Source: an uncultured Clostridia bacterium (lineage in GTDB: Bacteria; Bacillota; Clostridia; Christensenellales; Borkfalkiaceae). Taken from it: 35,973 bases of DNA. Location: the NCBI GenBank assembly GCA_930989535.1, contig CAKNLK010000022.1, positions 1 to 35,973 on the forward strand, read 5' to 3'. Position 1 is the stretch's first letter; every line of letters starts with the position of its first letter. A model generated the notes under the pieces. That model did no database searches. It worked only from the letters and a program-made list of their open reading frames with translations, and was not told the origin of the DNA. A program made the position numbers and the translations under genes. Shown here piece by piece: positions 2,298-32,630 of this stretch.

Positions 2298-2433
2298 TCA
2301 TGTGTAACCCGAACACCCCGGCTCCGCATTGTTTTTATATCGTTGACTCTACGCTGTTTTCAATCACTAAATATTGCAACTTTTCGCCTTTCCTCCCGCT
2401 ATAGAGGCTATCGATTTACGTTACCCGTACCTT
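2298..2433. other. Non-coding junction sequence
   Basis: No convincing gene, promoter or hairpin is visible here. It joins the integrative-element remnant to the truncated structured repeat that follows, so the right end of the inserted DNA may lie near 2430. Confidence 0.4.
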
Positions 2434-2663
2434 TGCTTACGGGAAGAGAGTGAAGCCGCCCGATTACAAAATATGTGTGCTCTTAAAAATCGGGCGGCGA
2501 GAGAGAAACCGCCGTCAGGCGCAATAGTGCCGTGCGGCGGTGTCTTTCTCAAAATCACGGCTTTTTGTTTTATAATCGCCATAGGCGATTGCGGTGCGCT
2601 CGTTTTCGCCATTGCAAGCAAGTGAAAGCCTCGCACACCTTCAGCTTAAAACTTTTTTCGTGA
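2434..2663 (+). repeat. Structured intergenic repeat, copy 1 (5'-truncated)
   Basis: Homology to the other copies starts at GCTTACGGGAAGA (compare 19217 onward), so the first hairpin is missing. Present are the long central stem, GCCGCCCGAT (2455-2464) with ATCGGGCGGC (2489-2498), around a 24-base loop containing ATATGTGTGC. Next is the GAG...CTC stem (2499-2550) with its A-G mismatch and one G-U pair. The right arm of the final hairpin follows, with loop TCAGCT, then AAAACTTTTTTCGTGA up to 2663. About 70 unrelated bases separate the two arms of that last hairpin. It ends 2 bases before the stop codon of the convergent PocR/AraC gene. Confidence 0.75.
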
Positions 2664-4035: not shown

Positions 4036-4108
4036 CGGGGGAAAACCGCTCGGGTTTCCCCTAAATCTCACGGAAAAAAGTTTTAACAGCTTAAAACTTT
4101 TTTCGTGA
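4036..4108 (+). repeat. Structured intergenic repeat, partial unit (last two hairpins)
   Basis: A GGGGAAAACC/GGGTTTCCCC hairpin (about 4037-4061) is followed by the terminal hairpin. Its arms start with TCACGGAAAAAAG (4068) and end with CTTTTTTCGTGA (4108), and its loop is ACAGCT. It is nearly identical to the terminal hairpin at 4254-4295 and lies just upstream of the PocR/AraC promoter. Confidence 0.7.
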
Positions 4109-4110
4109 AC

Positions 4111-4295
4111 CAAATAATTACTGCGCGTTTGAGAACCGCGCTTCTCAAAAAGCGCCCCCAATTTGTCGCATACTTGCGACCTGAGCGGGTGAATGCCGCG
4201 CGCGTAATATGGTGTGCCCTTAAATCGCGCGCGGCAGAGGGCAGAGTCCTCAACTCACGGAAAAAAGTTTTATCAGCTTAAAACTTTTTTCGTGA
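4111..4295 (+). repeat. Structured intergenic repeat, copy 2 (complete)
   Basis: Order of parts: TTGAGAA-CCGCGC-TTCTCAA hairpin inside a GCGC/GCGC stem (about 4122-4154); GTCGCA-TACT-TGCGAC hairpin; GGGTGAA; a perfect 11-bp stem TGCCGCGCGCG (4194-4204) with CGCGCGCGGCA (4226-4236) around a loop containing TAATATGGTGTGCCC; a short GAGG...CCTC hairpin; and the terminal hairpin 4254-4295 with loop TCAGCT. It ends 2 bases from the stop codon of the minus-strand corrinoid activator gene. Confidence 0.85.
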
Positions 4296-4297
4296 AC

Positions 4298-10500: not shown

Positions 10501-10847
10501 GGTTTTAATTTTTAACAATCAAATGCGCGTCCGAAAACCGCGCTTTTCGGAAAGCGTACCCAATTTGCCGTATACCTGCGGCTTTTGCGGAAAGAGTGAA
10601 TTTGCGCGATAAAAATAATCCATCGCGCAAGCAAAACCGCGCTTTTGCGCGGCGCAACCCTATTTGCCGAAAGGCTTTTGCAGGAAAGGTGAATGCGGCG
10701 CGCATACTATGGCGTGCCCCGAAAAGGCGCGCCGCAGAGGAAAACTCCGAACGCAAAAAGGCGTACCGAATCGGTACGCCTTTTCCGTTGGGGTTGTCCT
10801 CAAACTCACGAAATTTTGTTTCAACAGCTTGAAACAAAATTTGTGAA
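10501..10847 (+). repeat. Structured intergenic repeat, copy 3 (tandem front units)
   Basis: It begins GGTTTTAATTTTTAACAATC. Two front units follow in tandem: TCCGAAAA-CCGCGC-TTTTCGGA (10530-10551) and GCAAAA-CCGCGC-TTTTGC (10631-10648). The first is followed by a small hairpin with a U-G pair and by TTGCGCGAT/ATCGCGCAA (10602-10630). The second is followed by GCC-GAAA-GGC (10666-10675) and GGAAAGGTGAA. A perfect 10-bp stem, 10694-10703 with 10727-10736, has a loop containing TATGGCGTGCCCC. A long GAGGA...TCCTC stem (10737-10801) contains a perfect inner palindrome. The terminal hairpin 10805-10847 has loop ACAGCT. The addA stop codon lies inside this last hairpin. Confidence 0.85.
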
Positions 10848-13800
10848 CACTTGTATCTCAAACTCCCTCAAAATATTGACGATATACGCCGTGACCTTTT
10901 CCACGCCGGGCAGGCGCTTTGCCGCCGCCGCGTAAATTTTTAACTGCGGCGTATACGTCTGCACGAGCTGCTCCTCCCCGTGCGAGGAATACTTGTAATC
11001 GACGATGATGCACTCGTTGCCGCGCACCGCCATCAGGTCGATGACGCCCTGCACGAGCAGCTCGTCCTGCGCGTCCGTTTCCAGCACCTCGCAGGCGGGC
11101 GCGCACAGCAGGAACTCCCGCTCCCGCCACAGCGTAAAGCCTTGCAGCCGCGCGAATACGGGCATGCGCAGAATGCGCTCCATCCGCCCCAAATCCAGCG
11201 GCGAATCCTTTCCGCCGAGCAGAGCATACAGCCGCGCCGCTTCCCCTTTGGGTGGCGCGGAAAAGTCGGCACGTTCCAAAAATGCGTGGTACGCCGTGCC
11301 CGTTTCCGCGTCGGCGGGGCCGCTGTAAAACTCGCCCGCCGCCCGCTCGCTCGCCCGCTCCTCCTCGGGCAGAAGCTGCTCGGCAAGCTGTTTTTCCCGC
11401 TCCTGCAACACGGCGGAAGCGGAGGTTTTGACGGGCAGGCGCAGGCTGCTTTCGAAGGGATACGGCCGCTCGTACTGCGCCAGAACCGCCGCCTTTGCCT
11501 CCCCGTCCGCATCGTCCGCCGACAGAACGCGGGGCGCGGGCGGTGTAAGTTCGCCGCCGAATACGGGCGAATACAAATCGCGGAATTTTTCAAAATCGAC
11601 GAAATCGGCAAAGCAGGACGCGTCGGCGAGGTTCGCGGCATCGAAGGGGCGCTCCTCCTCGAACACGAGGTGCAAACAGCTCTTGGCGCGGGTGAGCGCG
11701 ACGTAGAAGAGACGCATTTCGTCCTCCGCGCGCTTGCGGCGCAGGCGCGCGCGCACGACCGCGCGCAGGATGGTTTCCTCCGCCGTATAGTTTTGCAGGT
11801 CGTACGCGGGCGGCGCGAAGCCCCACTCGTCGTCGAACAGGATGCCGCGCATATCCTCGGCGCTGAAGCGGCCGTTCAGCCCCGCGACGATGACCACGGG
11901 GAATTCCAGCCCCTTGGAGGCGTGCATGGTCATCACGCGCACGGCGTTTTCGCCGCCGCTCTCCGAAAAGCCGACCTTATACCCGCCGTTTTTGAGCCTG
12001 TCCAAAAATTCGGGAACGCTCAGTTCGCCCGCCTCCGCCATGAAGCGGCGCAGTCGCCGCACCCGCTCCTCGCCGCACGGCAGGGACAGGAGGGTGAGCT
12101 CCATTCCCGTTTCCGCGAGGATGACCGCCATCACCTCCGCCGCGCTCTTGACGGTGCACAGCAGGCGGAAATGCTCGGCGCGGGCGCGGAAAGCCTGCAG
12201 CTTTTCCGCGAGGGCGTCGCCGTTTTTTTCGTACGCGGCGCAGGCGGCGGAGAAGGAATCATCCTGTTTTGCGGCGAGGCGGATATTCGCCAGCTCCTCG
12301 TCCGTGACGCCGCCCATGTCGCTTTTCAGCGCGGCGGCGAGCGGAATATCCTGCGCGCCGTTGTCGAGATACTGCAGCACGGCGAGCATCGTCTTTACCT
12401 CGGGATAGTCGCACACGTTGACCTCGGCGGAGGCGGCGACGGGGATGCCGCGGCGGACGAGCTCGCCCACGATGCGCCCCGCCTTTTCCGTCTTTCCGCG
12501 GGTGAGCACGACGATGTCGCCGAAGCCCATTTTTCGCTCTTCGCCCGACGAGGGGTCGGGGCGGCTTCTGCCGACTTCGGAGAGTACGATGTTCGCAATC
12601 AGCGCGCCCTCGGCGTACTCCTCGTCCTCCTGCAAACCGAGCCGCGCGGCGACCGAATATACGCCCCGCTCGGCGCGCTCCGCCTCCTCCTTTTCGGGCA
12701 CGAACTCGAAGCGCACCTCGCCCCCCGCCTGCGCCGCGCTGCCCGCCTGCATCATCGAGGTGGCAGCGTAATCGACCGAGCCGACCTCCTCCGTCATCGC
12801 CGCAGAGAAGAGGGTGTTGACGGTATCGAGGATGTTTTTACAGCTGCGGAAATTGCCGTTCAGGGTGAGCGCCCGCCCATCCTTTGCCAGCCGCGCGTAC
12901 TTTTCGGCGAAGAAGCCCGCGCTGCACCCGCGGAAGCCGTAGATGGACTGCTTCGCGTCGCCGACCATGAACACGTTTTCGCCCGCGACGAGGGACAAAA
13001 TGCGCTCCTGCGCGGGGTTAACGTCCTGATATTCGTCGACAAAGACGTGCGTATAGCGGCCGCGCACCTCCTCGCACACGGACGAGATGTTCAGAAGTTC
13101 CAGGCACTTGTGCTCCAAGTCGGAAAAGTCCAGAGCGCCCGCCCGCCGCTTGAGCGCCGCGTATGTATCCGAAAATTCCGAAATCAATTCGCACAGCGCC
13201 GCCGCGACCTCGCCCGAGGCGCAGAACGCACCCTCTTCCTCCTCCCGCGTGCGAAAGGCGGACAGGCTCTTTTTGACGGCGTCGACGTCGTCCTTGAGGG
13301 AAGCGAGGCGTGCGTCCAGCTCCAGCGCCGCCGCGTCGCCCGCGTTTTTCAGCTTGGTGTTGGGCGGCTTATTGATGAGCTTGACGTCGCGCACGAGCGC
13401 CGCGGCGTCGAACACGTTCCCTGCGGCGAGCACGTCGTCGGCAAACAGCTGGCGGGCGGCGAGGTAAGCGGCGTGCTTATCGCCGAACGTGCCCGCCTCG
13501 ATGTACGGCGCGCACTCCCGCTCCAGCGCGGCGCACTTCTCCTTTAACCGCCGCGCGTGCCGCGCGGCAGGCTCGAACGCCTCCTCCGCCAGCCGCGCGA
13601 AATGCGCCCCGTCGTAGCGGGAAGGGAGTTCCTGCAAAAAGCCTTTGAAGTCGGCGCGCACAATCGCCTTTTCGTACGATTTTTGCAATACGTCGGCAAG
13701 TTTTCCGAACCCTCTGCCCCCCGCGAATACCCTGCACAGCAGGGCGAACTTTTCCGATTTTTCGGTAAGAAGTTTGTCGAAAGTGAGGGAGACGGCGCGG

Positions 13801-14213
13801 GTTTTGAGCTTTTCCGCCTCCGCATCGTCGGCGACGCGGAAATTGCCGTCGATATCCGCCTCGTAAAAATAGCGGCGGATGACGTTGGAGCAGAAGGAGT
13901 GCAGGGTGCAGATATCCGCCGTGCCGATTTCCGAAAGCTGGGCCTTGAGACGGGCGCGCACAGCCTCGTCCTGCTCCTGCCCGATGCGGGCGAAGATGGC
14001 CGAGCGGAGGCGCTCCTTCATCTCCGCGGCGGCAGCTTTCGTAAACGTGACCGCGAGGACGGACGACACGTCTGCCCTGCCCGAGAGGATGAGGGAGATG
14101 ATTTTTTCAATCATTACGAATGTTTTGCCGCTGCCGGCGGACGCGGAGACGAGCACCTCGCCCGCCGCGTCGATGGCGGCCTGCTGTTCCGCCGTAGGTC
14201 TGCGCGCGCTCAT
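10821..14213 (-). CDS. addA: ATP-dependent helicase/nuclease AddA
   Basis: The 1130-residue AddA subunit of the AddAB enzyme, which processes double-strand DNA ends for recombination in the cytoplasm. A UvrD-type helicase core is clear: Walker A ASAGSGKT near residue 25, VLAVTFTKAAAAEMKERL, VFVDEYQDVNPAQERIL, MVGDAKQSIYGFRG, and near the end of the core VMTMHASKGLEFPVVIVAGL and RLFYVALTRAKSCLHLVFEE. The C-terminal RecB-type nuclease domain shows GVIDLMAV and IIVDYKYSSH. Length is close to the usual 1200. The start at 14213 overlaps the addB stop as ATGA, with a GGAGGGGAG site, so the two are translationally coupled. The frame is open further upstream, but that part is antisense to nothing useful and overlaps addB. 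The last eight residues are encoded by a repeat hairpin (see findings). Confidence 0.95.
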   Translation of the reverse strand: MSARRPTAEQQAAIDAAGEVLVSASAGSGKTFVMIEKIISLILSGRADVSSVLAVTFTKAAAAEMKERLRSAIFARIGQEQDEAVRARLKAQLSEIGTADICTLHSFCSNVIRRYFYEADIDGNFRVADDAEAEKLKTRAVSLTFDKLLTEKSEKFALLCRVFAGGRGFGKLADVLQKSYEKAIVRADFKGFLQELPSRYDGAHFARLAEEAFEPAARHARRLKEKCAALERECAPYIEAGTFGDKHAAYLAARQLFADDVLAAGNVFDAAALVRDVKLINKPPNTKLKNAGDAAALELDARLASLKDDVDAVKKSLSAFRTREEEEGAFCASGEVAAALCELISEFSDTYAALKRRAGALDFSDLEHKCLELLNISSVCEEVRGRYTHVFVDEYQDVNPAQERILSLVAGENVFMVGDAKQSIYGFRGCSAGFFAEKYARLAKDGRALTLNGNFRSCKNILDTVNTLFSAAMTEEVGSVDYAATSMMQAGSAAQAGGEVRFEFVPEKEEAERAERGVYSVAARLGLQEDEEYAEGALIANIVLSEVGRSRPDPSSGEERKMGFGDIVVLTRGKTEKAGRIVGELVRRGIPVAASAEVNVCDYPEVKTMLAVLQYLDNGAQDIPLAAALKSDMGGVTDEELANIRLAAKQDDSFSAACAAYEKNGDALAEKLQAFRARAEHFRLLCTVKSAAEVMAVILAETGMELTLLSLPCGEERVRRLRRFMAEAGELSVPEFLDRLKNGGYKVGFSESGGENAVRVMTMHASKGLEFPVVIVAGLNGRFSAEDMRGILFDDEWGFAPPAYDLQNYTAEETILRAVVRARLRRKRAEDEMRLFYVALTRAKSCLHLVFEEERPFDAANLADASCFADFVDFEKFRDLYSPVFGGELTPPAPRVLSADDADGEAKAAVLAQYERPYPFESSLRLPVKTSASAVLQEREKQLAEQLLPEEERASERAAGEFYSGPADAETGTAYHAFLERADFSAPPKGEAARLYALLGGKDSPLDLGRMERILRMPVFARLQGFTLWREREFLLCAPACEVLETDAQDELLVQGVIDLMAVRGNECIIVDYKYSSHGEEQLVQTYTPQLKIYAAAAKRLPGVEKVTAYIVNILREFEIQVFTNFVSSC

Positions 14214-17200
14214 AAATCTCCCCTCCTTTTTTTGACGATGTTCACGATTTCTTCGCCCGTTACCTTCTTTTCCGAGCGGGGCGGCGCGGAAACGTCGTGC
14301 CCGCACATGCCGCCGTAGGGGCAGAAGTCGCACGCGCCGCGGTAGGGCGACGCGGCGATGCAGCCCGCCTCCGTCTCCTTGGCGCAGCTCTGCGCCGCCA
14401 GCACCGAATAGGCGATGAACGCCTCGAAATCTTCCCCCTCCAGCGCCTTTTTGCGCTTGTTTTGGTAATACGCGTCGATAAAGCGGCTCTTCTGCCCCGG
14501 CTCTACGCTTCGGTCGCTCATCTTGACGACAACGTCGTCGCCGACGGTGAAACCCTGCATGCGGAAGGGACTGTCGGTATCGGGCGAGGTGAAAGCGAGG
14601 CGGGCGGGGAAATAGTAGGCGCCCGCGGGCCTGCCCCCCTTCGCCGCCGCCGAAAGGTATAATTCCAGCTGCAATTTGCGCCCCGTGTAGTAGTTTTCCG
14701 CGCTCACGTCGAAGGATCCCGTCTTGTAATCGACGACGCGCGCGTACTCGCCGCACCTGTCCACGCGGTCGATTTTGCCCGCAAGGGAAATTTTGCGCTC
14801 GCCCGAGAGGAGGGCGATGCCGCGGAAAGGCGAGCCGGGGTAGCCGAACGTCTGCTCGGCGGCGGCGACGGTGAAGTCGGAGCCGTCAATCTGCTCGAAC
14901 ACGTTTTTGCCGACGACGGCCGCCTCGTTTTCGAGCGCGGACGCGGAATACTCCCCTTCCGCCGTGTCCTTTAAATAGCAGTACGGCGGCTTTTCGAGAA
15001 GCGCGCGCGCCGTTTCGCGCACGAACTCCTCGCAGTTGCCCGCGTTGAGCGAGGGCATATTGTCGGCGAGCCTGCGAAGCACCTCGTGCATAAAGTTGCC
15101 TGTATCGGTGACGCGCACGCTCTGCTCCTCCCGCTCCTGCAGCCCCAGCCCCCGCTCGGCAAAGTTGCGGTACGGGCAGTTGAAGTACCCCTCGATAAAG
15201 GTGGGCGAAACGGTGTGCTTGCCGCGGAAGGCCAGTTCCGCCGCGTTCGGGATAAAGTTTTTGTCCTTTTCGGCGGGGAACAGGAGCGCATCGGGCGCGG
15301 CGCCCCGCGCGCGCAATGCCGCCAGCAGGCCCGCGTGCGCGGAAAAATCCCCCCTGCCGCGGCGGTAGGAATCCGCCCGCGCCAGCAGTTCGCGCACGGC
15401 GGGGATATGCTCGCTCGAGAGGCTCGAAAGGTAGCGGATATAGGCTGTGCGGTCGGTTTTTTCCGAGCGCTCAAGCGCGGCGCGGGTAAGCGCCGCAAGG
15501 GGCTTTCCGCTCTGCGCGCACAGGCAGGCGCGCGCCTCGTCGACGAGTTCGCTCTTTTTGCACTCCTCGCCCCCGCGCGCGAGCGGATAGGACAGATACA
15601 GTTTTTCGGCGAACGAGCACAGCGCCAGCGCCGCGTTCTCCCGTGCGCGGGCGTTGACTTCGCGGATTTTCGGGCTGATTTCCACCTGCAGCGAGCGCAG
15701 GCGGTCGATGTCCTTGTCCGAGATGAGCGCGGTGTCCGCGCCCGCGGGCGGCACGTCGGCAGTCAGCCCCGCCGCGAACACGATTTTGCAGGCGCGCTGT
15801 TTGCTTTCGGTGAGATTGCCGACGAACACCGCGTCGGCATACTGCGGGATGAGGGAGACCTCGAGGGCGTTCAGCGCCTCGGCGAGGGAGGCGGAAAATT
15901 CCTCCGCCCGCCGCCTTTCCCCGCCCGCGAGCTCCTCCGCCTCGCCCAACACGCGAAGGATGCCGTCCAGGCCGCGCAGCATGAACTCCCGCTCGGCGAA
16001 CATGCCCGCCTCTTCCAATTTTTGGGCGAGAGCTTCCTGCGTCTTTTCGCACTCGAACAAATCGAACAGCCGCCGCGCGAGGCGGCAGTATTCGGCGCAG
16101 AGCATGGCGGGCTTCGCCCCCTCGAAGGGCGCGAGGAACCGCCCGCGCATGGCTTCCAGCACCAGCGGCTCGGCGTTTACGTCTTTCCCGCCCCGCTTCG
16201 CCGCGCCGTCGTTTTGCGGATATTTTATCGGCCGCTTTACCCCGCCGCGGAAGTTCGCGTATTTCAGAAGATAGTTGCGGTAAGCTTCGCACGAGCCGCG
16301 CTCGCCGAAGAACGGGTTGCCGATAAAGGCGTCCGCATCGGCGGAATCGAACCCCTCGGAGATGAGCGCGAAGTAGCGGAGCAGGAATTTTGCGAGCGGG
16401 TGCGCGGCAAGGCTGCGCTTTGCGTCCGCATAATAGGGTATTTTGTACTCGGAAAAGAGCTTTTCCAGCCCGACGGAATACCCCGCCGCGTCGGGGGGCA
16501 GAAACAGCGCGATATCCCGCCAGCGCGCGCCGCGGGAAACTTCGCTCTTTATCATCGCCGCGATGAAGGAGAGCTCGTCCGTCTCGTCCGCCGCCTCGAA
16601 GATATGTACGTTTGCGCAGGGCAGCGGCGCGCCGCGCACGGGGTCGTACAGCCCGCGGCGGAGCGCCTCCGCCGCCGCACACGCGCGCGAGGGCAGGGCG
16701 ACGCGCTCGCACTGCGCGCCCGCCCGGCGGCAGTACTTTTCGAAGGCGTTTGCCGCCTCGTTCGTGTACAGTTCCTCCTCCCCGCCGATGAATACGCCCG
16801 TCACCGTTTTGGCGAGCCTGAGCGCCGCGAAGATGCCCTCCGCCGCCTGCCGGGTGAAGGAAGTGAACCCCGCAAACACGATGTTCGCGCCCGCGGCGTT
16901 CCCCTCCTCCATCGCGGCGGGCAGCCCCGCCAGAACGCCGCTCTCGTCGACATACCCCGTATCCAGAAAGGCAAGGTAATCGCGGTAGACGAGGGAGATA
17001 TCCGCCAGCTTTTCGGAAAGAAGCCTGTCCGCGCCTGCACGCGCCTCGTCGAGCATTTCGGGGGTGACGAGGGCGGCGCGCAGCTGGGCGATGGTCTCGT
17101 ACAGCCTGCCCGCGCAGGCGGAAGGGTTTTTGCCGAAGCATTTCAGCTCCCCCGCCCGCCGCGCGGCGATGGCGCCGACGACGAGCACGGAGCCCTGCTT

Positions 17201-17644: not shown

Positions 17645-18832
17645 ATGAAAAAATTCTTTGCGGCGGCGGCGCTGGCAACGGCGGCCCTTCTGCTGTTTAC
17701 CGGCTGTTCCGCACAAATCACCGCCGACATTTCCTCGGGTTGGTTTACCGACCCCGCGACCGCTTTCGAGAGCACCTTCTACGAATCGCTCGACTATACC
17801 GTGGGCTTTAACAACTCTGCTTCGAACACCACCGGCCTGACCATCGACGTCGATTCTAAAAACAGTTCCTATAACATCACGACGAAGGCGCTCTCCAATT
17901 ACACCGTGCCCGGCACGAACATCCAATACTCGAACGTGTATTATCTGAAATCCACGCTGACGGTGAGCGCGACGTACCGCTTCGTCCACGACGGCGAAAC
18001 GCTTGAATGGTCGTTCGGCGGCACGCACGACACCGACGCTGCCAACGAGGATTTCGCGCCCGAAGACGCCGATTCCGTCGTAATGGAGGTTTGGTTCACC
18101 TCCGCAAACAGTACTGCGGCAGGCACGCAGGAAACATGCCCTGCATACAGCCCCATCCGCAGCGTACAGACGGTGCGCTCGCACGGCTCTTCCGCCTCCG
18201 TCATCGACGGCAATAAAATGTTCATGTCCATGTACGACTTCAGCATAACCATCGACTACAACCGGACATGCCAAAACGCGACCGCCGCTTATACCGATAA
18301 CTTCGCCGATTTGACGGACGAGGAGCGCGCTGCGAACGAATATGTGCGCAAAGCCCCCACCCTCTTCCCCGACAGCCGCGACTTGAAAGATTTGCAAAAG
18401 AATTATACCTGCGTGGACAACGCACAGCTTTTATTCATCGCCCGCGGGCTGGCGATGAATACCGACACCTCGCATACCCTGACGGTGGTAAGCGGCGTAG
18501 CGAACAATTACCCCGCCACCCAAAGCATCTCGTGCAGCGAGCTCGTCAACAGCCACGCGAATTTTACGATGGTAAATGCGGACGGGAGTGAAAGCGTCTA
18601 TGACGACAATAAAGAAGAAATCCCCGTTGCGCGCATGAGGTTTGCCTTGGCAAACACCGGATCGAACATCGGCGAGAACACAACTGTGACGTATGCACAG
18701 CGCACAGCGAGCGGAGCGAACACCAACCGCTGCCTGCCCCTGCACATCGAAACGCCCTACGGCTGGAATATCGGCAACTACGAATACACGCTGGAAAAAG
18801 CAACCTACCAGGCCCCCGCCGAACAGGCTTGA
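17645..18832 (+). CDS. Predicted lipoprotein of unknown function
   Basis: A 395-residue protein with a clear lipoprotein signal: two lysines, a hydrophobic stretch and the lipobox FTGC with Cys21, so it should be lipid-anchored on the outer face of the membrane. The mature part is rich in Ser, Thr, Asn and Asp, with alternating beta-strand-like segments (for example VYYLKSTLTVSATYRFVHDG). I recognise no catalytic motif or named domain. The start at 17645 has GGAG 8 bases upstream and a good promoter 60 bases upstream. It is a single gene with its own terminator, on the opposite strand from addBA. It may be a ligand-binding or adhesive surface protein; this is only a guess from composition. 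Confidence 0.8.
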   Translation: MKKFFAAAALATAALLLFTGCSAQITADISSGWFTDPATAFESTFYESLDYTVGFNNSASNTTGLTIDVDSKNSSYNITTKALSNYTVPGTNIQYSNVYYLKSTLTVSATYRFVHDGETLEWSFGGTHDTDAANEDFAPEDADSVVMEVWFTSANSTAAGTQETCPAYSPIRSVQTVRSHGSSASVIDGNKMFMSMYDFSITIDYNRTCQNATAAYTDNFADLTDEERAANEYVRKAPTLFPDSRDLKDLQKNYTCVDNAQLLFIARGLAMNTDTSHTLTVVSGVANNYPATQSISCSELVNSHANFTMVNADGSESVYDDNKEEIPVARMRFALANTGSNIGENTTVTYAQRTASGANTNRCLPLHIETPYGWNIGNYEYTLEKATYQAPAEQA

Positions 18833-18852
18833 ACAAAACGAAAAACAAAGCG

Positions 18853-18884
18853 GCGCCCCCGAAAAATTTCGGGGGCGCGTTTTT
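18853..18884 (+). terminator. Terminator of the lipoprotein gene
   Basis: GCGCCCCCGA and TCGGGGGCGC (18853-18878) form a perfect 10-bp stem followed by GTTTTT, 20 bases past the stop codon. Confidence 0.9.
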
Positions 18885-18891
18885 ATTGCCT

Positions 18892-19033
18892 TTATTCACG
18901 AAAATCTCACTGCGCTTTTGCGGCTGCGCACGAGGCCTAGTTCTCGCAATACCCTAACGGGTATCGCTCGCTTCCGCCTCGGCTCCGCCGCCTTTGTTCA
19001 CGAAAATCTCGCTTCACTGCGATTTTCCGTGAG
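18892..19033 (-). repeat. Direct repeats and a reversed terminal-type hairpin
   Basis: TTCACGAAAATCTC occurs near 18895 and again at 18997, about 100 bases apart. From the second copy a hairpin forms with GATTTTCCGTGA (18998-19033). Its outer sequence CTCACGG...CGTGAA, read on the minus strand, is that of the terminal hairpins of the structured repeat family, but in the opposite orientation. A small ATACCC/GGGTAT hairpin lies between the repeats. No gene is visible. Confidence 0.5.
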
Positions 19034-19038
19034 TCTGT

Positions 19039-19438
19039 GGTTTTATATTTTAATAATCGAATGCGCGTTTGAGAACCGCGCTTCTCAAAAAGCGCACCTA
19101 AGTTGCCGCACTCATACGGCTTTTGCAGGAAAAGTGAACGCGGCACTTAAAATAATTACTCGCGCAAGCAAAACGACGCTTTTGGAAAAGCGCACCCGAA
19201 TTGCCGCATACTTGCGGCTTACGGGAAGATGGTGAATTTTTAGTAATCACTTGAAAAAGGCAAAACCGCGCTTTTGCCTTTTTCCCCCGATTTGCCGAAA
19301 GGCTCACGGAAGGGGTGAAAACGCCGCGCATAATTATGGCGTGCCCCAAAAAAGCGCGGCGTTGAGGGGAAAACCGCTCGGGTTTCCCCTCAAAATCGCA
19401 CAATTTCGCAGCCGTCAGCTCGGCGAGAAATTGGCGAG
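19039..19438 (+). repeat. Structured intergenic repeat, copy 4 (three front units)
   Basis: It begins GGTTTTATATTTTAATAATC. Three front hairpins follow in tandem: TTGAGAA-CCGCGC-TTCTCAA (about 19069-19088), CAAAA-CGACGC-TTTTG (about 19169-19184) and a 12-bp version AAAAAGGCAAAA-CCGCGC with its complement (about 19255-19284). Each is followed by a CCG-type hairpin and a G(G/A)(T/A)GTGAA-like stretch. The central stem is a perfect 10 bp (19320-19329 with 19354-19363) around a loop with TTATGGCGTGCCCC. Then come GAGGGGAAA...TTTCCCCTC and the terminal hairpin with loop TCAGCT. It ends a few bases from the asnB stop codon. Confidence 0.85.
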
Positions 19439-19442
19439 CTAT

Positions 19443-21026
19443 TTACTTCCCGCTATCCCCGTAGTTCGCCAATACGCGGGCGCTGGGGTCGTTTACGTTG
19501 CAGCCCGCCCAGCTCTTGTTCGGCATCCAGAAATCCTTGACCATTTCCGCCTGGCCGGGGTAGTACTTTTCAAAAATTTCCCGATACAAGAGGCTCTCCT
19601 TCGTAAACGGTTTGGCATGGTAGGCGTACTTTTCGGCGATTTCCTGCCAATCTTCGCCGTACCGCCCTTCGGCGTATTCCTTTAAATCGTCGACCATGGA
19701 ATGCCCGACCGCGTCGGAGAACGCCGCCTTTTCGCGATACAGGATATCGTGCGGGAGCCAATCCCCCTCGAAGGCGCGGCGCAGCAGGTACTTGCCCTTG
19801 CCGTACCTGTTCAGCTTCAATTCGGGGTCGATGCTCATGACGTAGCGCACGAAATCGAGGTCGCCGAAGGGCACGCGCGCCTCCATCGAGTGGACGGAGA
19901 TGCAGCGGTCGGCGCGCAACACGTCGTACATGTGCAGTTCGCGCACCCGCTTTTGCGATTCCCGCTGAAATTCCGCCGCGGATGGCGCAAAATCGGTGTA
20001 CTTGTAGCCGAACAGCTCGTCGGAAATTTCGCCCGTCAAAAGCACGCGCACATCCGTCGTCTGATGAATGGCGCGGCACAAAAGGTACATGCCCATGGAC
20101 GCGCGGATGGTGGTGATGTCGTAGGTGGCGAGCGCCGCGATGACCTCTTCGAGGGAGGAAAGCACCTCCCCGCGCGTCATGTAAATTTCGTGGTGTTCGG
20201 AGCCGATGTAGTCCGCAACCTCGCGGGCGTACTTTAAGTCGATGGCGTCCTTGTCCATGCCGATGGCGAAAGTTTGGATGGGCTTTTTGAGCATCCTCTG
20301 CCCGATGGAACAGACGAGCGAACTGTCCAGCCCGCCCGAGAGGAGAAAGCCGAGGGGCGCGTCGCTGTCCAGCCGCTTTTCCACGCCCGCAATCAGCTTT
20401 TCGCGGATGTTTCTGCAGATTTCGTCTAAACTCCCGCGGGTGTACTCCTTGACGGCGGCGATGTCGCAATAGCTGCGGAACTTGCCGTTTTTGTAGTATT
20501 TGCCGGGCGGGAATGGGTAAATTTCGCCGTAAACCAACCCCTCGAGGTTTTTCGGCTCGCTCGCGAAGACGATGGCGCCGTTCTCCAGATACCCGTAGTA
20601 GAGCGGCCGGATGCCGATGGGGTCGCGCGCGGCGATGTACTCGCCCGTTTCGCCGTCGTACAGCACGAGCGCGAACTCCGCGTCGAGCATTCTGAACATG
20701 CCCGTGCCGTGCTCGGCGTACAGCGGGAGCAGGATTTCACAGTCGCTCTCCGAATGGAAGGCGTACCCCCTTTGCTCCAATTCTTTTTTCAGCGGGCGGA
20801 AGCCGTAAATTTCGCCGTTGCAGACGAGGCGGTTTTTACCCATCCAGAAGGGCTGCATCCCCTCCGCGTTCAGCCCCATGATGGCGAGGCGGTGGAAGCC
20901 CATCCAGCCCGAGGGCGTCTCTTCCAGCGCGGTCATGTCCGGCCCGCGCGAAACCGTTCTGTAAAAGCAGCGCCGCATGCGCTCCTGATCCACGTCCTTG
21001 CTCGTACAGCAGAAGATCGAACACAT
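19443..21026 (-). CDS. asnB: Asparagine synthase (glutamine-hydrolysing)
   Basis: A 527-residue AsnB, making asparagine from aspartate with glutamine as nitrogen donor and ATP cleaved to AMP. The catalytic Cys2 follows the start Met (MCSIFCC), so the start at 21026 is well fixed, with AGGAG 9 bases before it. The glutaminase half shows GFHRLAIMGLN and LVCNGEIYGF. The synthetase half has the ATP-pyrophosphatase loop FLLSGGLDSSLVCSIG and LLTGEISDELFGYKY. Length is close to Escherichia coli AsnB (554). It is the last gene of the long glt-antar-dapF-pyrG-dapL run, 22 bases after dapL, and ends next to a structured repeat. Confidence 0.95.
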   Translation of the reverse strand: MCSIFCCTSKDVDQERMRRCFYRTVSRGPDMTALEETPSGWMGFHRLAIMGLNAEGMQPFWMGKNRLVCNGEIYGFRPLKKELEQRGYAFHSESDCEILLPLYAEHGTGMFRMLDAEFALVLYDGETGEYIAARDPIGIRPLYYGYLENGAIVFASEPKNLEGLVYGEIYPFPPGKYYKNGKFRSYCDIAAVKEYTRGSLDEICRNIREKLIAGVEKRLDSDAPLGFLLSGGLDSSLVCSIGQRMLKKPIQTFAIGMDKDAIDLKYAREVADYIGSEHHEIYMTRGEVLSSLEEVIAALATYDITTIRASMGMYLLCRAIHQTTDVRVLLTGEISDELFGYKYTDFAPSAAEFQRESQKRVRELHMYDVLRADRCISVHSMEARVPFGDLDFVRYVMSIDPELKLNRYGKGKYLLRRAFEGDWLPHDILYREKAAFSDAVGHSMVDDLKEYAEGRYGEDWQEIAEKYAYHAKPFTKESLLYREIFEKYYPGQAEMVKDFWMPNKSWAGCNVNDPSARVLANYGDSGK

Positions 21027-30518: not shown

Positions 30519-30550
30519 ATGAGAGAGCAAGTGTAAGCATTTTAGTTATT

Positions 30551-30615
30551 CACGAAAACCTCGGGTTTCCCCTCTCGGCGTTTCGCAGGCGACAGCTCGC
30601 CAAGAAATGCCGAAA
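30551..30615 (+). repeat. Structured intergenic repeat, copy 5 (3' part only)
   Basis: A fragment with AAAACC-TCG-GGTTTCCCCTC is followed by the terminal hairpin, CTCGGCGTTTCGCAGGCG-ACAGCT-CGCC then AAGAAATGCCG. It is almost the same hairpin as in copy 6 but with one G-U pair replacing A-U. It ends 8 bases from the amt stop codon. The front hairpins and central stem are absent. Confidence 0.65.
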
Positions 30616-30623
30616 CTCCTTTT

Positions 30624-32342
30624 CTACTCGTCCTGCAGCGCGTCGTAGCCGCTCTCGCCCGTGCGGACGCGGACAACGTCTTCCACGTCGTAGACGAAGA
30701 TCTTGCCGTCGCCGATGTGCCCGGTGTACAGCGCCTTGCGCGCCGCCGCAACGACTTCATCGACGGGGACTTTGCTTACGACCACTTCGACCTTGACCTT
30801 GGGCAGGAGATCCATATCCACCTTGACGCCGCGGTAGTATTCGCTCGCACCCTTCTGCACGCCGCAGCCGAGCACCTGCGTGACCGTAAGCCCCGTGACG
30901 CCGATGGCGCCGAGCGCTTGCTTCAAATCTTCAAACTTGGACTGCTTGGTCAGGATGACCACCTTGGAGAGCTTTGCCCCCGCCTCGCTGCTCTCCCTGA
31001 CGGCGGGCACGGTGGTATCGACCACGGTGACGCCCGCAGGCTCCGCCGGGGTAAACCCTTCGGGATCAATCATCTCTGCCGCAAGAGGCGCGGCCACAAA
31101 ATCGGCATAGGCGCTGGGCAGACCGTGTTCGTGTTTATCCAGCCCTTCGATCTCCTCGATGCGCGAGGCGCGGATGCCGCAGGTGTGTTTGAGGATCTGG
31201 AACAGGGCGACCATGCAGACGATTGTCCACGCCGCGATGCAGACGATGCCGAGCAGCTGCACGGCAAGCTGTGAAAAGTTCCCCGTATAGAACAGCCCCG
31301 TGCTCGTGGAGAACAGCCCGCAGGCGATGGTACCCCACAGCCCGTTCGCACCGTGTACGGCAATCGCGCCGACGGGGTCGTCGATGTGCAGCTTTTTGTC
31401 GATGACTTCGACCGCGACGTCGACGAGAATGCCCGCGATCAGGCCGATGAAGAACGCGCCGACCACATCGACCACCGCGCAGCCCGCCGTAACGGCGACA
31501 AGGCCTGCGAGGGAGCCGTTGAGCGTCATGGAAACGTCCGGCTTTTTGTTTTTGATCCAGGTATAGACCATTGTGGAGATGGTCGACGTTGCGGTGGCGA
31601 CGGTGGTGACGACGAGGATCTGTGCGAGCTGCGCCACATCCGAAGCGGCCGCGCCGTTGAAGCCGTACCAGCAGAACCAGAGGATGAACACGCCGAGCGC
31701 GCCGACGGTGAGGTTATGTCCCGGAATGGCGCGGACGTATACCGCTTTTTTGCGCTCGAGGGTGGGTTTGCCGTCCTTATCGAGGTACTTTCCCCAGCGC
31801 GGGCCGAGGATGAGCGCGCCGATGAAGGAAGAGATGCCGCCGACCATGTGGATGAGCGAAGAGCCGGCGAAATCGATGTAGGTCACGCCCAGGATTTCCT
31901 GCGTGAGCCAGCCGCCGCCCCACACCCAGTGCGCTTCGATGGGATAGACGACTGCGCTGATGACGAGGGAATAGATGCAGTAGGAAAGGAACTTCGTGCG
32001 TTCCGCCATGGCGCCCGAAACGATGGTTGCGGTGGTGGCGCAGAACACGAGGTTAAAGAAGAAAGTCGACCAGTCGTAGTTCGCAAAGTCGGTGAACACG
32101 CCGAGGTTGGGGATGCCGACGAGGCCGAAGAGAGCGTCCTCTCCCATCAAAAGCCCGGCGCCGAGCAGTACGAAAACGATGGTGCCGAGGCAGAAGTCGA
32201 GCAGGTTTTTCATGATGATGTTGCCCGCGTTTTTGGCACGGGTGAATCCCGTTTCCACCATGGCAAAGCCTGCCTGCATGAACCAGACGAGGATAGCGCC
32301 GATCAGGAACCAGACGCCCGTCGAGCCGAATATGCCGTCCAT
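30624..32342 (-). CDS. amt: Ammonium transporter fused to a PII signalling domain
   Basis: A 572-residue fusion. Residues 1 to about 410 form an Amt channel of eleven membrane helices; the conserved motifs include AGSSLIHMVGG and AVHGANGLWGTIACG, the latter with a pore histidine. After a linker, the last 110 residues are a complete PII (GlnB/GlnK) domain: VVILTKQSKFEDLKQALGAI, a T-loop with GASEYYRG, and the ending GDGKIFVYDVEDVVRVRTGE. Free PII proteins plug Amt pores when nitrogen is plentiful; here the plug would be tethered. The start at 32342 has GGAGG 9 bases upstream. Neighbours are glnA upstream and glutamate synthase downstream. Amt-PII fusions are known in Clostridia. Confidence 0.95.
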   Translation of the reverse strand: MDGIFGSTGVWFLIGAILVWFMQAGFAMVETGFTRAKNAGNIIMKNLLDFCLGTIVFVLLGAGLLMGEDALFGLVGIPNLGVFTDFANYDWSTFFFNLVFCATTATIVSGAMAERTKFLSYCIYSLVISAVVYPIEAHWVWGGGWLTQEILGVTYIDFAGSSLIHMVGGISSFIGALILGPRWGKYLDKDGKPTLERKKAVYVRAIPGHNLTVGALGVFILWFCWYGFNGAAASDVAQLAQILVVTTVATATSTISTMVYTWIKNKKPDVSMTLNGSLAGLVAVTAGCAVVDVVGAFFIGLIAGILVDVAVEVIDKKLHIDDPVGAIAVHGANGLWGTIACGLFSTSTGLFYTGNFSQLAVQLLGIVCIAAWTIVCMVALFQILKHTCGIRASRIEEIEGLDKHEHGLPSAYADFVAAPLAAEMIDPEGFTPAEPAGVTVVDTTVPAVRESSEAGAKLSKVVILTKQSKFEDLKQALGAIGVTGLTVTQVLGCGVQKGASEYYRGVKVDMDLLPKVKVEVVVSKVPVDEVVAAARKALYTGHIGDGKIFVYDVEDVVRVRTGESGYDALQDE

Positions 32343-32373: not shown

Positions 32374-32402
32374 TTTATACGGTTTTATATTTAAATAATT
32401 AA
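32374..32402 (-). promoter_or_regulatory. Weak candidate promoter of amt
   Basis: On the minus strand TATAAA (32374-32379) with a poor -35 (TTAATT) 17 bases upstream. It overlaps the left end of the structured repeat, so the repeat may have contributed this AT-rich sequence. Confidence 0.3.
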
Positions 32403-32625
32403 ATGCGCGTTCCAAAACGACGCTTTTGGATAAGCGCACTCAATTTGTCGCATACCTGCGGCTTTTGCAGGAAAGGTGAAGCCGCGCGATTTTATAATAT
32501 GCGTGCGCCTATTTATCGCGCGGCGAGGAAAACTCCGAACGCCGCGCCGCTTACAAAACGGCGCGCGTTGGGGTTGTCCTCAACTCTCGGCATTTCGCAG
32601 GCGACAGCTCGCCGAGAAATGCGAG
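32381..32625 (+). repeat. Structured intergenic repeat, copy 6 (complete)
   Basis: It begins GGTTTTATATTTAAATAATT. Then TCCAAAA-CGACGC-TTTTGGA (32411-32430) inside GCGC/GCGC; GTCGCA-TACC-TGCGGC (32447-32462) with one U-G pair; GGAAAGGTGAA; and a 10-bp stem, 32481-32490 with 32515-32524, around a 24-base loop with AATATGCGTGC. The GAGGA...TCCTC stem (32525-32581) carries a GC-rich inner hairpin. The terminal hairpin 32586-32625 has loop ACAGCT and a purine internal loop. It ends 5 bases from the glnA stop codon. Confidence 0.88.
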
Positions 32626-32630
32626 AATTG

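Follow-up and report, generated by a model that had tools for sequence, protein, structure and literature searches.

The dispersed, covarying hairpin repeats of this contig from an uncultured Clostridia bacterium are confirmed, and each repeat is one arm of a larger, mirror-symmetric element. We believe, with somewhat better than even confidence, that these elements are old, patchily distributed, non-autonomous and probably mobile palindromic sequences of the REPIN/BOX kind, in which the shape of the hairpins is inherited; rather than any known RNA, they seem to be a family of small DNA elements, so far undescribed, that jump or once jumped. The repeats had been noticed in a sequence-only reading of the window, by which we mean the whole stretch of 35,973 nucleotides that was analysed (contig C22 of the 2.12-Mb, 36-contig draft genome G000, 92% complete), and the interpretation given there is partly supported.

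Detection of the repeats in the window

We aligned 12 copies, including window positions 32404-32524, and wrote their fold by hand, yielding the covariance model R1; of two earlier seed searches for more copies, one had given none and the other 13. R1 produced 185 matches in 88 chosen loci (E <= 0.01), six of them in the window (2385-2498, 4122-4235, 10524-10631, 19062-19164, 19259-19363 and 32404-32524). All copies listed in the sequence-only reading were found (Table 1), and the five central stems quoted there are present and pair as quoted. Its description of single copies had to be amended: the number of internal modules varies, with one, two (10501) or three (19039) A/B units in window copies, the last hairpin of the copy at 2434 is interrupted, and the partial copies at 4036-4108 and 30551-30615, which are indeed present, are both D-E remnants. 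The window copies are single arms or remnants, of which one (19039) keeps an E'-type hairpin on its left. Folding the 222 nt at 32404-32625 gave z = -5.3 for the + strand and -4.8 for the - strand, in both cases better than all 200 shuffles.

Table 1. Copies of the repeat in the window and parts of the copy at 32381
Feature	Position	Strand	Remarks
Copy	2385..2663	+	A/B degraded, C and D intact, E split by additional sequence; 2 nt separate its end from a stop codon on the opposite strand (2666)
D-E remnant	4036..4110	+	E at 4068-4108
Half-element	4111..4297	+	core 4122-4235, E 4255-4295; adjoins an opposite-strand stop codon (4298)
Half-element	10501..10848	+	A/B unit present twice; E (10806-10846) runs into the 3' end of a putative AddA-like helicase-nuclease frame on the opposite strand (10821-14756) and contains its stop codon (10821)
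E'-type hairpin	18998..19032	-	left end of the 19039 copy, the other element terminus
Half-element	19039..19438	+	three A/B units; C ends at 19363, D 19364-19391 (by reading), E 19396-19437
Remnant	30551..30615	+	E with part of D, followed by the tail of another E-type hairpin; internally deleted copy between the amt stop codon and the native terminator
AT-rich end	32381..32403	+	half of the palindromic centre of a two-armed element, by comparison with 33 head-to-head centres
Hairpin A	32404..32438	+	GCGC/GCGC foot, 7-bp stem, hexaloop CGACGC
Module B	32438..32480	+	GTCGCA/TGCGGC hairpin, then GCAGGAAAGGTGAA
Hairpin C	32481..32524	+	10-bp stem GCCGCGCGAT/ATCGCGCGGC, loop with TATGCGTGC
Hairpin D	32525..32581	+	GAGG...CCTC
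Terminal hairpin E	32585..32626	+	TCTC[G]...GAGA, loop ACAGCT; the glutamine synthetase III gene on the opposite strand has its stop codon (32631) 4 nt further on

Another structured module, F (CTCGCAATACCC...GGGTATT...CCGCCTT), is often found ahead of the E'-type hairpin; at window positions 18916-19035 it appears inserted in one. By eye, a second structured repeat of ~130 nt lies within the loop of hairpin C, at a similar place in several copies and species (L022, L025, L030 (G000), L278, L281 and L107), and in some copies the foot of C is still paired around this insert.

Architecture of the two-armed element

The full plan of the element is E'D'C'B'A'-[centre of ~22 nt, ATTATTTAAATAAT]-ABCDE. 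We searched for neighbouring arms among 203 matches in 107 loci (the best 150 of the 185 matches of the first search, 49 later ones and 4 more of the first search added by hand, a few places being present in two loci) and found 33 head-to-head pairs, every one with a spacer of 20-26 nt (exactly 22 nt in 19 of the 33) and with a palindromic, AT-rich centre. The same matches included 2 tail-to-tail arrangements less than 400 nt apart and 40 same-strand neighbour pairs at most 300 nt apart. The pair count rests on covariance-model matches, a regular expression for head-to-head elements having given just 2. What had been taken for an AT-rich left end is therefore half of a palindromic centre, and what had been described as the whole unit is half of an element.

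Complete elements (E'D'C'B'A'-centre-ABCDE) measure ~380-460 bp and a shortened form (E'-centre-ABCDE), whose left side is an E'-type hairpin alone, ~250-290 bp; both carry the same type of terminal hairpin at each end, in inverted orientation. Distances between inverted E'/E ends fell mainly into two classes in the loci analysed (246-294 and 379-463 bp); longer pairings form a tail that reaches 1562 bp. These ends are mostly GTTCAC...GTGAAC, so that terminal inverted repeats are present, and the stem past the foot is variable. The stems of the two arms of one element, compared by eye, are usually unlike each other, and the arms thus do not pair together along their length. Many copies in G000 are single arms.

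The terminal hairpin E typically consists of a 4-bp foot, a bulged G, a 13-bp stem of freely variable sequence and a (T/A)CAGCT loop; the loop had been recognised from the sequence alone and the conserved bulge overlooked. A strict search of 199 arms yielded 45 distinct strong E hairpins (71 arms gave none, 64 weak ones and 19 duplicates), of which 42 have a one-base bulge in the 5' arm after the foot (38 G, 3 A, 1 T); the foot is 4 bp long in 40 of these 42, and the inner stem mostly 13 bp. Counting with fixed geometry gave 79 distinct E hairpins with a 5' bulge (G in 60, A in 12), versus 13 without a bulge and 20 with the bulge on the other arm, and the loop in this set is mostly TCAGCT (40) or ACAGCT (18). 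Since the 5'-bulge geometry was favoured for each inner length tried (11-15 bp), the 13-bp length rests on the strict search and on reading of the sequences. The feet TCAC and TCTC accompany a bulged G and TCGC a bulged A, and one subtype has a 7-bp inner stem followed by an internal loop. Among copies of other genera, read individually, L145 and L146 retain the 4-bp foot, bulged G and 13-bp stem, and L149 has an E without the bulge. The feet of 181 E-type hairpins read CCYYAAAM on the 5' side and A(C/T) on the 3' side, and sequence conservation fades 2-3 nt past E.

Pairing and covariation of the stems

For the pairing statistics we used the best 150 of the 185 R1 matches, 149 of them distinct (alignment A3). 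In these 149 copies, 93.9% of 4327 cells pair, versus 71.0 ± 0.4% in shuffles and 35.7-50.0% in slid controls; 914 cells are changed on both sides, versus 264 ± 14 in shuffles, and the covariation score is 0.498, versus 0.136 in shuffles and 0.06-0.08 in slid controls. The cells cannot be counted as independent events, since the copies are related, the loci were chosen by likeness to those of the window, and the alignment follows the model. For 47 more distant matches, from other genera, the figures are similar: 93.3% of cells pair, 311 are changed on both sides and the score is 0.534. The pairing is not due to chance, and the covariation proposed from the few window copies persists with more of them.

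Stem evolution between close copies and between species

We collected 99 module pairs with at most 5 differences, each sequence being used once. Differences per unpaired site amounted to 0.131 (A), 0.090 (B) and 0.106 (C), single-sided stem changes to 0.009 (A), 0.015 (B) and 0.022 (C), and compensated changes per pair to 0.011 (A), 0.020 (B) and 0.000 (C). Per site, unpaired positions of near-identical copies thus change ~5-14 times faster than stem sites change on one side, which places pairing under constraint in the short term rather than under simple neutral repair, and which bears out the earlier view of a selected structure as opposed to decay. Over the long term, the stem pairs look near saturation. 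The stems transmit complementarity rather than sequence, and the loops, joiners, stem geometry and terminal bulged G are kept.

Orthologous copies of different species differ by the replacement of complete hairpins as blocks. Of the sites shared by G000 and G017, that at 10501 has nearly identical B-C-D modules and another paired allele of hairpin A; that at 2434 nearly preserves C-D, with differences in A, B and E; and that at 4036-4295 preserves the arrangement, with stems that differ. Further cases of such exchange were seen. The perfect pairing of differing stems reported in the sequence-only reading stands, with the amendment that part of the variation is block replacement and not stepwise compensation. 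Alleles of hairpin A combine almost freely with those of hairpin C (mutual information 2.54 versus 2.42 ± 0.05 in shuffles), with a weak link remaining, as 39 of 2000 shuffles reach the observed value. Unpaired cells make up 2.55% in 58 head-to-head arms versus 3.79% in 137 other arms (permutation 0.03), a comparison that mixes species and two alignments; within G000 alone the values are 2.65% (12 head-to-head arms) versus 4.57% (51 others).

Replication template switching could perfect inverted repeats without selection, leaving neutral palindromes, and would be in keeping with the nearly pure Watson-Crick stems and with the multi-base replacement of both stem arms together. Such switching is described as making stems in RNA genes in the accessible part of one report (PMC8794818) and is proposed for hairworm mitochondria in excerpts of another (PMC6649704). 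We would expect it, however, to give compensated changes at about the rate of unpaired sites, and the compensated rates given above stand against 0.09-0.13 at unpaired sites; the fixed position of the bulge and the conserved loops would also be left unexplained. Neutral palindrome repair is thus disfavoured, and we give it very little credence as an account of the family; template switching may be a source of new stem alleles.

Distribution across genomes

Using the copy at 32381 as a query, we obtained 58 BLAST matches in G000. Of 61 genomes searched by BLAST, 34 contain the repeat; all of these are among the 37 genomes of its own genus, G000 being one of them, whereas the 24 genomes of other families gave no match. 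R1 detected it in 13 of 200 genomes of the order, from families f1, f6 and f14, namely its own genome, eight from two other genera of the family and four from f6 and f14, with more than one match in 10 of the 13. A second model (R2, 56 sequences), run with stricter filters and E <= 1e-4, found it in 4 of 391 genomes of the class, all from its own family f1. The search of the genome and its relatives that had been proposed for the repeat returned many matches in G000, in the genus and in a few other genera of the order. Sequence-pattern matches in named records point to close relatives in Candidatus Borkfalkia faecavium (DXEW01) and uncultured Clostridia (CAJFFD01), the lineage belonging to the Christensenellales, and two of 16 genome-contig pattern matches lay in unrelated phyla (L063, L066). 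Phage and plasmid collections gave no match to one 245-nt query, nor did viral contigs to one exact 21-nt pattern. We saw no recent burst in G000, where the closest of the other copies shares 82% identity along its whole length and one 80-nt piece is 98% identical. Contigs of G012, G017 and G026 end within copies, and the copy numbers are therefore probably underestimates.

Placement relative to genes

Both neighbouring genes were called for 100 of 150 copies, using a codon-usage script on short flanks with codon usage taken from the window only, so that the following counts are rough: 17 copies lie between convergent and 2 between divergent genes, and in tandem placements E lies beside the stop codon in 54 and the other way in 27. 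The space on the promoter side is avoided, and there is a two-to-one preference in orientation. For 63 copies in G000, the gene on the E side is on the opposite strand in 44 and on the same strand in 19. Of the 7 E ends in the window, 6 are next to or within the 3' end of a gene on the opposite strand.

These placements are what might be expected if the repeats were transcription terminators or 3'-end signals of the adjoining genes. No conserved T run follows E, however, in the feet and flanks of 181 E-type hairpins, copies also lie between the predicted hslV and hslU genes (L149), and the native terminator of amt, a hairpin with a T-rich end, persists downstream of the element in all three species that carry one there. 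We consider a terminator role highly improbable.

Presence and absence after the ammonium transporter gene

Element material follows the amt stop codon in 3 of 28 species (G000, G017 and G035), in each case between the stop codon and the native terminator, which is recognisable downstream. It consists of E'D'C'B'A' and a second E' in G035, of E'D'C'B'A'-centre-hairpin in G017 and, read by eye, of the internally deleted remnant in G000. Covariance-model cores were found at this place in G017 and G035 only, and a finder for E, applied up to 700 nt from the amt stop (less in two loci), likewise returned only these two species, missing the decayed remnant of G000. Several hundred bases further downstream, past the terminator, cores occur in G032 (two) and G008 (one weak). 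Upstream of amt, where G000 has its copy at 32381-32625, a core was found among the other species in G021 only. A junction between G000 and G017 coincides with a rearrangement. The ammonium transporter (window 30624-32342) carries a fused P-II domain, and its neighbour is glutamine synthetase III. On contig C118 of G017 (L106), an element marks the point where the gene ending at window position 18768 meets the ammonium transporter gene, a rearrangement at repeats that involves window positions 18768-19443 and 30540-30627.

Wobble pairs, strand preference and RNA families

As controls from the same organisms we used 30 SRP RNAs (a match in 31 of 37 genomes, 30 loci returned), with a fold computed from the SRP alignment itself, and 31 tRNAs. 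The SRP RNAs have 14.0% wobble and 0.4% A-C pairs; the tRNAs have 6.8% wobble and zero A-C, with 0 mismatches in 652 cells, which may reflect the way ARAGORN draws stems. The repeat core has 2.3% wobble and 2.8% A-C (1.4% and 1.2% without the weak helix B-out), the distant-genera set 2.7% and 1.9%, and hairpin E 3.4% wobble. G-T versus A-C counts are 18:3 in A (foot and stem), 12:24 in B (mostly one allele), 24:17 in C and 45:6 in E, the last ratio being helped by a filter that counted G-T as paired. The G-T excess in A and E favours the + strand as the folded strand, and between close copies nearly every single-sided change in hairpin A creates or removes a G-T pair. Wobble is independent of the direction of the flanking genes (9 GT/14 AC versus 10 GT/12 AC). 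We also considered GC-to-CG flips as a marker of non-RNA stems and rejected it, flips being 35% of pair-type differences in the repeat, a similar 29% in tRNAs and 3.6% in SRP RNA; scarce wobble and weak overall strand asymmetry remain as the evidence.

The window and 19 further loci gave no match of the repeat to Rfam 15 at gathering scores, the only matches being 3 tRNA genes and 1 SRP RNA gene elsewhere in two of the loci, and relaxed thresholds on 5 loci gave nothing better than E = 0.07. The earlier statement that no known RNA family was recognised in the repeat thus agrees with the database.

The main rival to the mobile-repeat reading, which we nevertheless hold to be rather unlikely, is a functional structured RNA or UTR family, with arms transcribed outward from the AT-rich centre as a bidirectional promoter or reached by mRNA read-through, and with a fold that is bound by a protein or shields the mRNA. 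The strong covariation, the short-term constraint on pairing, the conserved loops and bulged G, a fold that beats all shuffles on both strands, the + strand preference of A and E together with the G-T changes in A, and the bias towards gene 3' ends would all fit such a function. Against it stand the scarcity of wobble relative to both controls, the help that the E ratio receives from its filter, the slight preference in C and reversed one in B, wobble that does not track the flanking genes, the 25 of 28 species that lack the element after amt, and the absence of a match in Rfam. Hairpins A and E leave room for a folded + strand, as RNA or single-stranded DNA, in a repeat that is unlike an ordinary RNA gene; the hint of RNA in the sequence-only reading is not established, with 1.4-3.4% wobble that does not follow the direction of transcription.

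Comparison with known mobile repeats

REPINs, as far as they are described in the accessible text of PMC3116915 and PMC8266576, are numerous intergenic inverted pairs of hairpins in which compensatory changes are common and single copies look pair-derived, some REP groups having an irregularity in the hairpin stem. Like REPINs and BIMEs, the repeat is an inverted doublet of bulged hairpins with many intergenic copies. Unlike them, it is ~250-460 bp long (the doublet spacings in P. fluorescens are 71 and 110 bp), has up to ten hairpins, an AT-rich centre and almost free stem sequence, and has neither a GTAG/CGTC tag nor a RAYT found beside its copies.

We searched for mobilising enzymes by domain. 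Y1 transposase (PF01797) occurs in 18 of 41 genomes, with 4 matches in G000, and was not found in several repeat-rich drafts (for instance G001, G003, G009, G016 and G020); none of the 10 tnpA loci tested, 9 of them from the own genus, contained a repeat core. Reverse transcriptase (PF00078) occurs in 6 of 41 genomes and 2 of the 25 genus members searched, and was not found in G000. Both enzymes were rejected as the mobilising enzyme since their distribution does not fit. In G000, locus L156 (contig C19) has an IS200-type tnpA with nearby CCACCGGCTATGCCGGTGG-like palindromes, which are unlike the hairpins of the repeat. We found no transposition event and no cognate enzyme among those searched, Y1 transposase and reverse transcriptase; the flanks of inverted E'/E ends gave no clear target-site duplication, the empty sites being strongly diverged.

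That these are true REPINs, moved by RAYT/TnpA-REP or an IS200-type Y1 transposase, would account for numerous intergenic, inverted pairs of bulged hairpins with singles seemingly derived from pairs, as in the available portion of PMC3116915, and for the PF01797 matches in G000. The defining features already fail: neither a GTAG nor a CGTC tag stands at the feet of E in 181 hairpins, PF01797 was not found in several drafts rich in repeats, and the tnpA loci lack a nearby core, the one examined in G000 having different ends. We regard true REPINs as very unlikely.

BOX elements of Streptococcus pneumoniae, in the part of PMC3049150 available to us, are composite, with a middle module variable in number and a predicted RNA fold, are nested with other repeats and are judged probably parasitic. 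By this description the repeat resembles BOX in plan, being modular with a variable count of internal modules; it differs in taxon and size, in the mirroring of its modules about a centre and in the replacement of stems as blocks. Like MITEs, the repeat is short, non-coding and dispersed, with inverted ends and an AT-rich centre; unlike them, its ends are hairpins of unconserved stem sequence, and no clear target-site duplication or related insertion sequence was seen in the loci scanned. Among bacterial intergenic repeats, the bcr1 family reportedly has a shared secondary structure. The same is described for the SLS stem-loop families in excerpts of PMC2267715, and the paired five-hairpin arms of our repeat set it apart from SLS and bcr1 so far as these descriptions go. 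We found no published description of the repeat in the open-access part of the literature that we searched.

Proposed mode of spread and significance

Within the reading of the repeats as probably mobile palindromic elements, we infer transposition, which by analogy with REPIN/RAYT might be carried out by a trans-acting recombinase or transposase that reads the folded single strand of the terminal hairpins. Pairing would be kept because unpaired copies would fail to spread, and modules could be traded between copies by recombination in the conserved joiners. A more specific version, which we put forward tentatively and think unlikely in its entirety, is a mobile element inherited by shape: a mirror chain of ten hairpins, interchangeable between copies, with no fixed stem sequence in termini or body, in which a putative recombinase would recognise the folded single strand by its bulged G, ~13-bp stem and CAGCT loop.

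We would call the repeat a new variant among small palindromic mobile repeats. If this is true, it would be a DNA repeat family that conserves hairpin geometry over sequence and is maintained across genera, its copies offering natural replicates for the evolution of paired arms, whether stepwise, by block exchange or by template switching. It also cautions that strong covariation is by itself no proof of a functional RNA, and it would point to a candidate shape-reading enzyme in a poorly known gut lineage.
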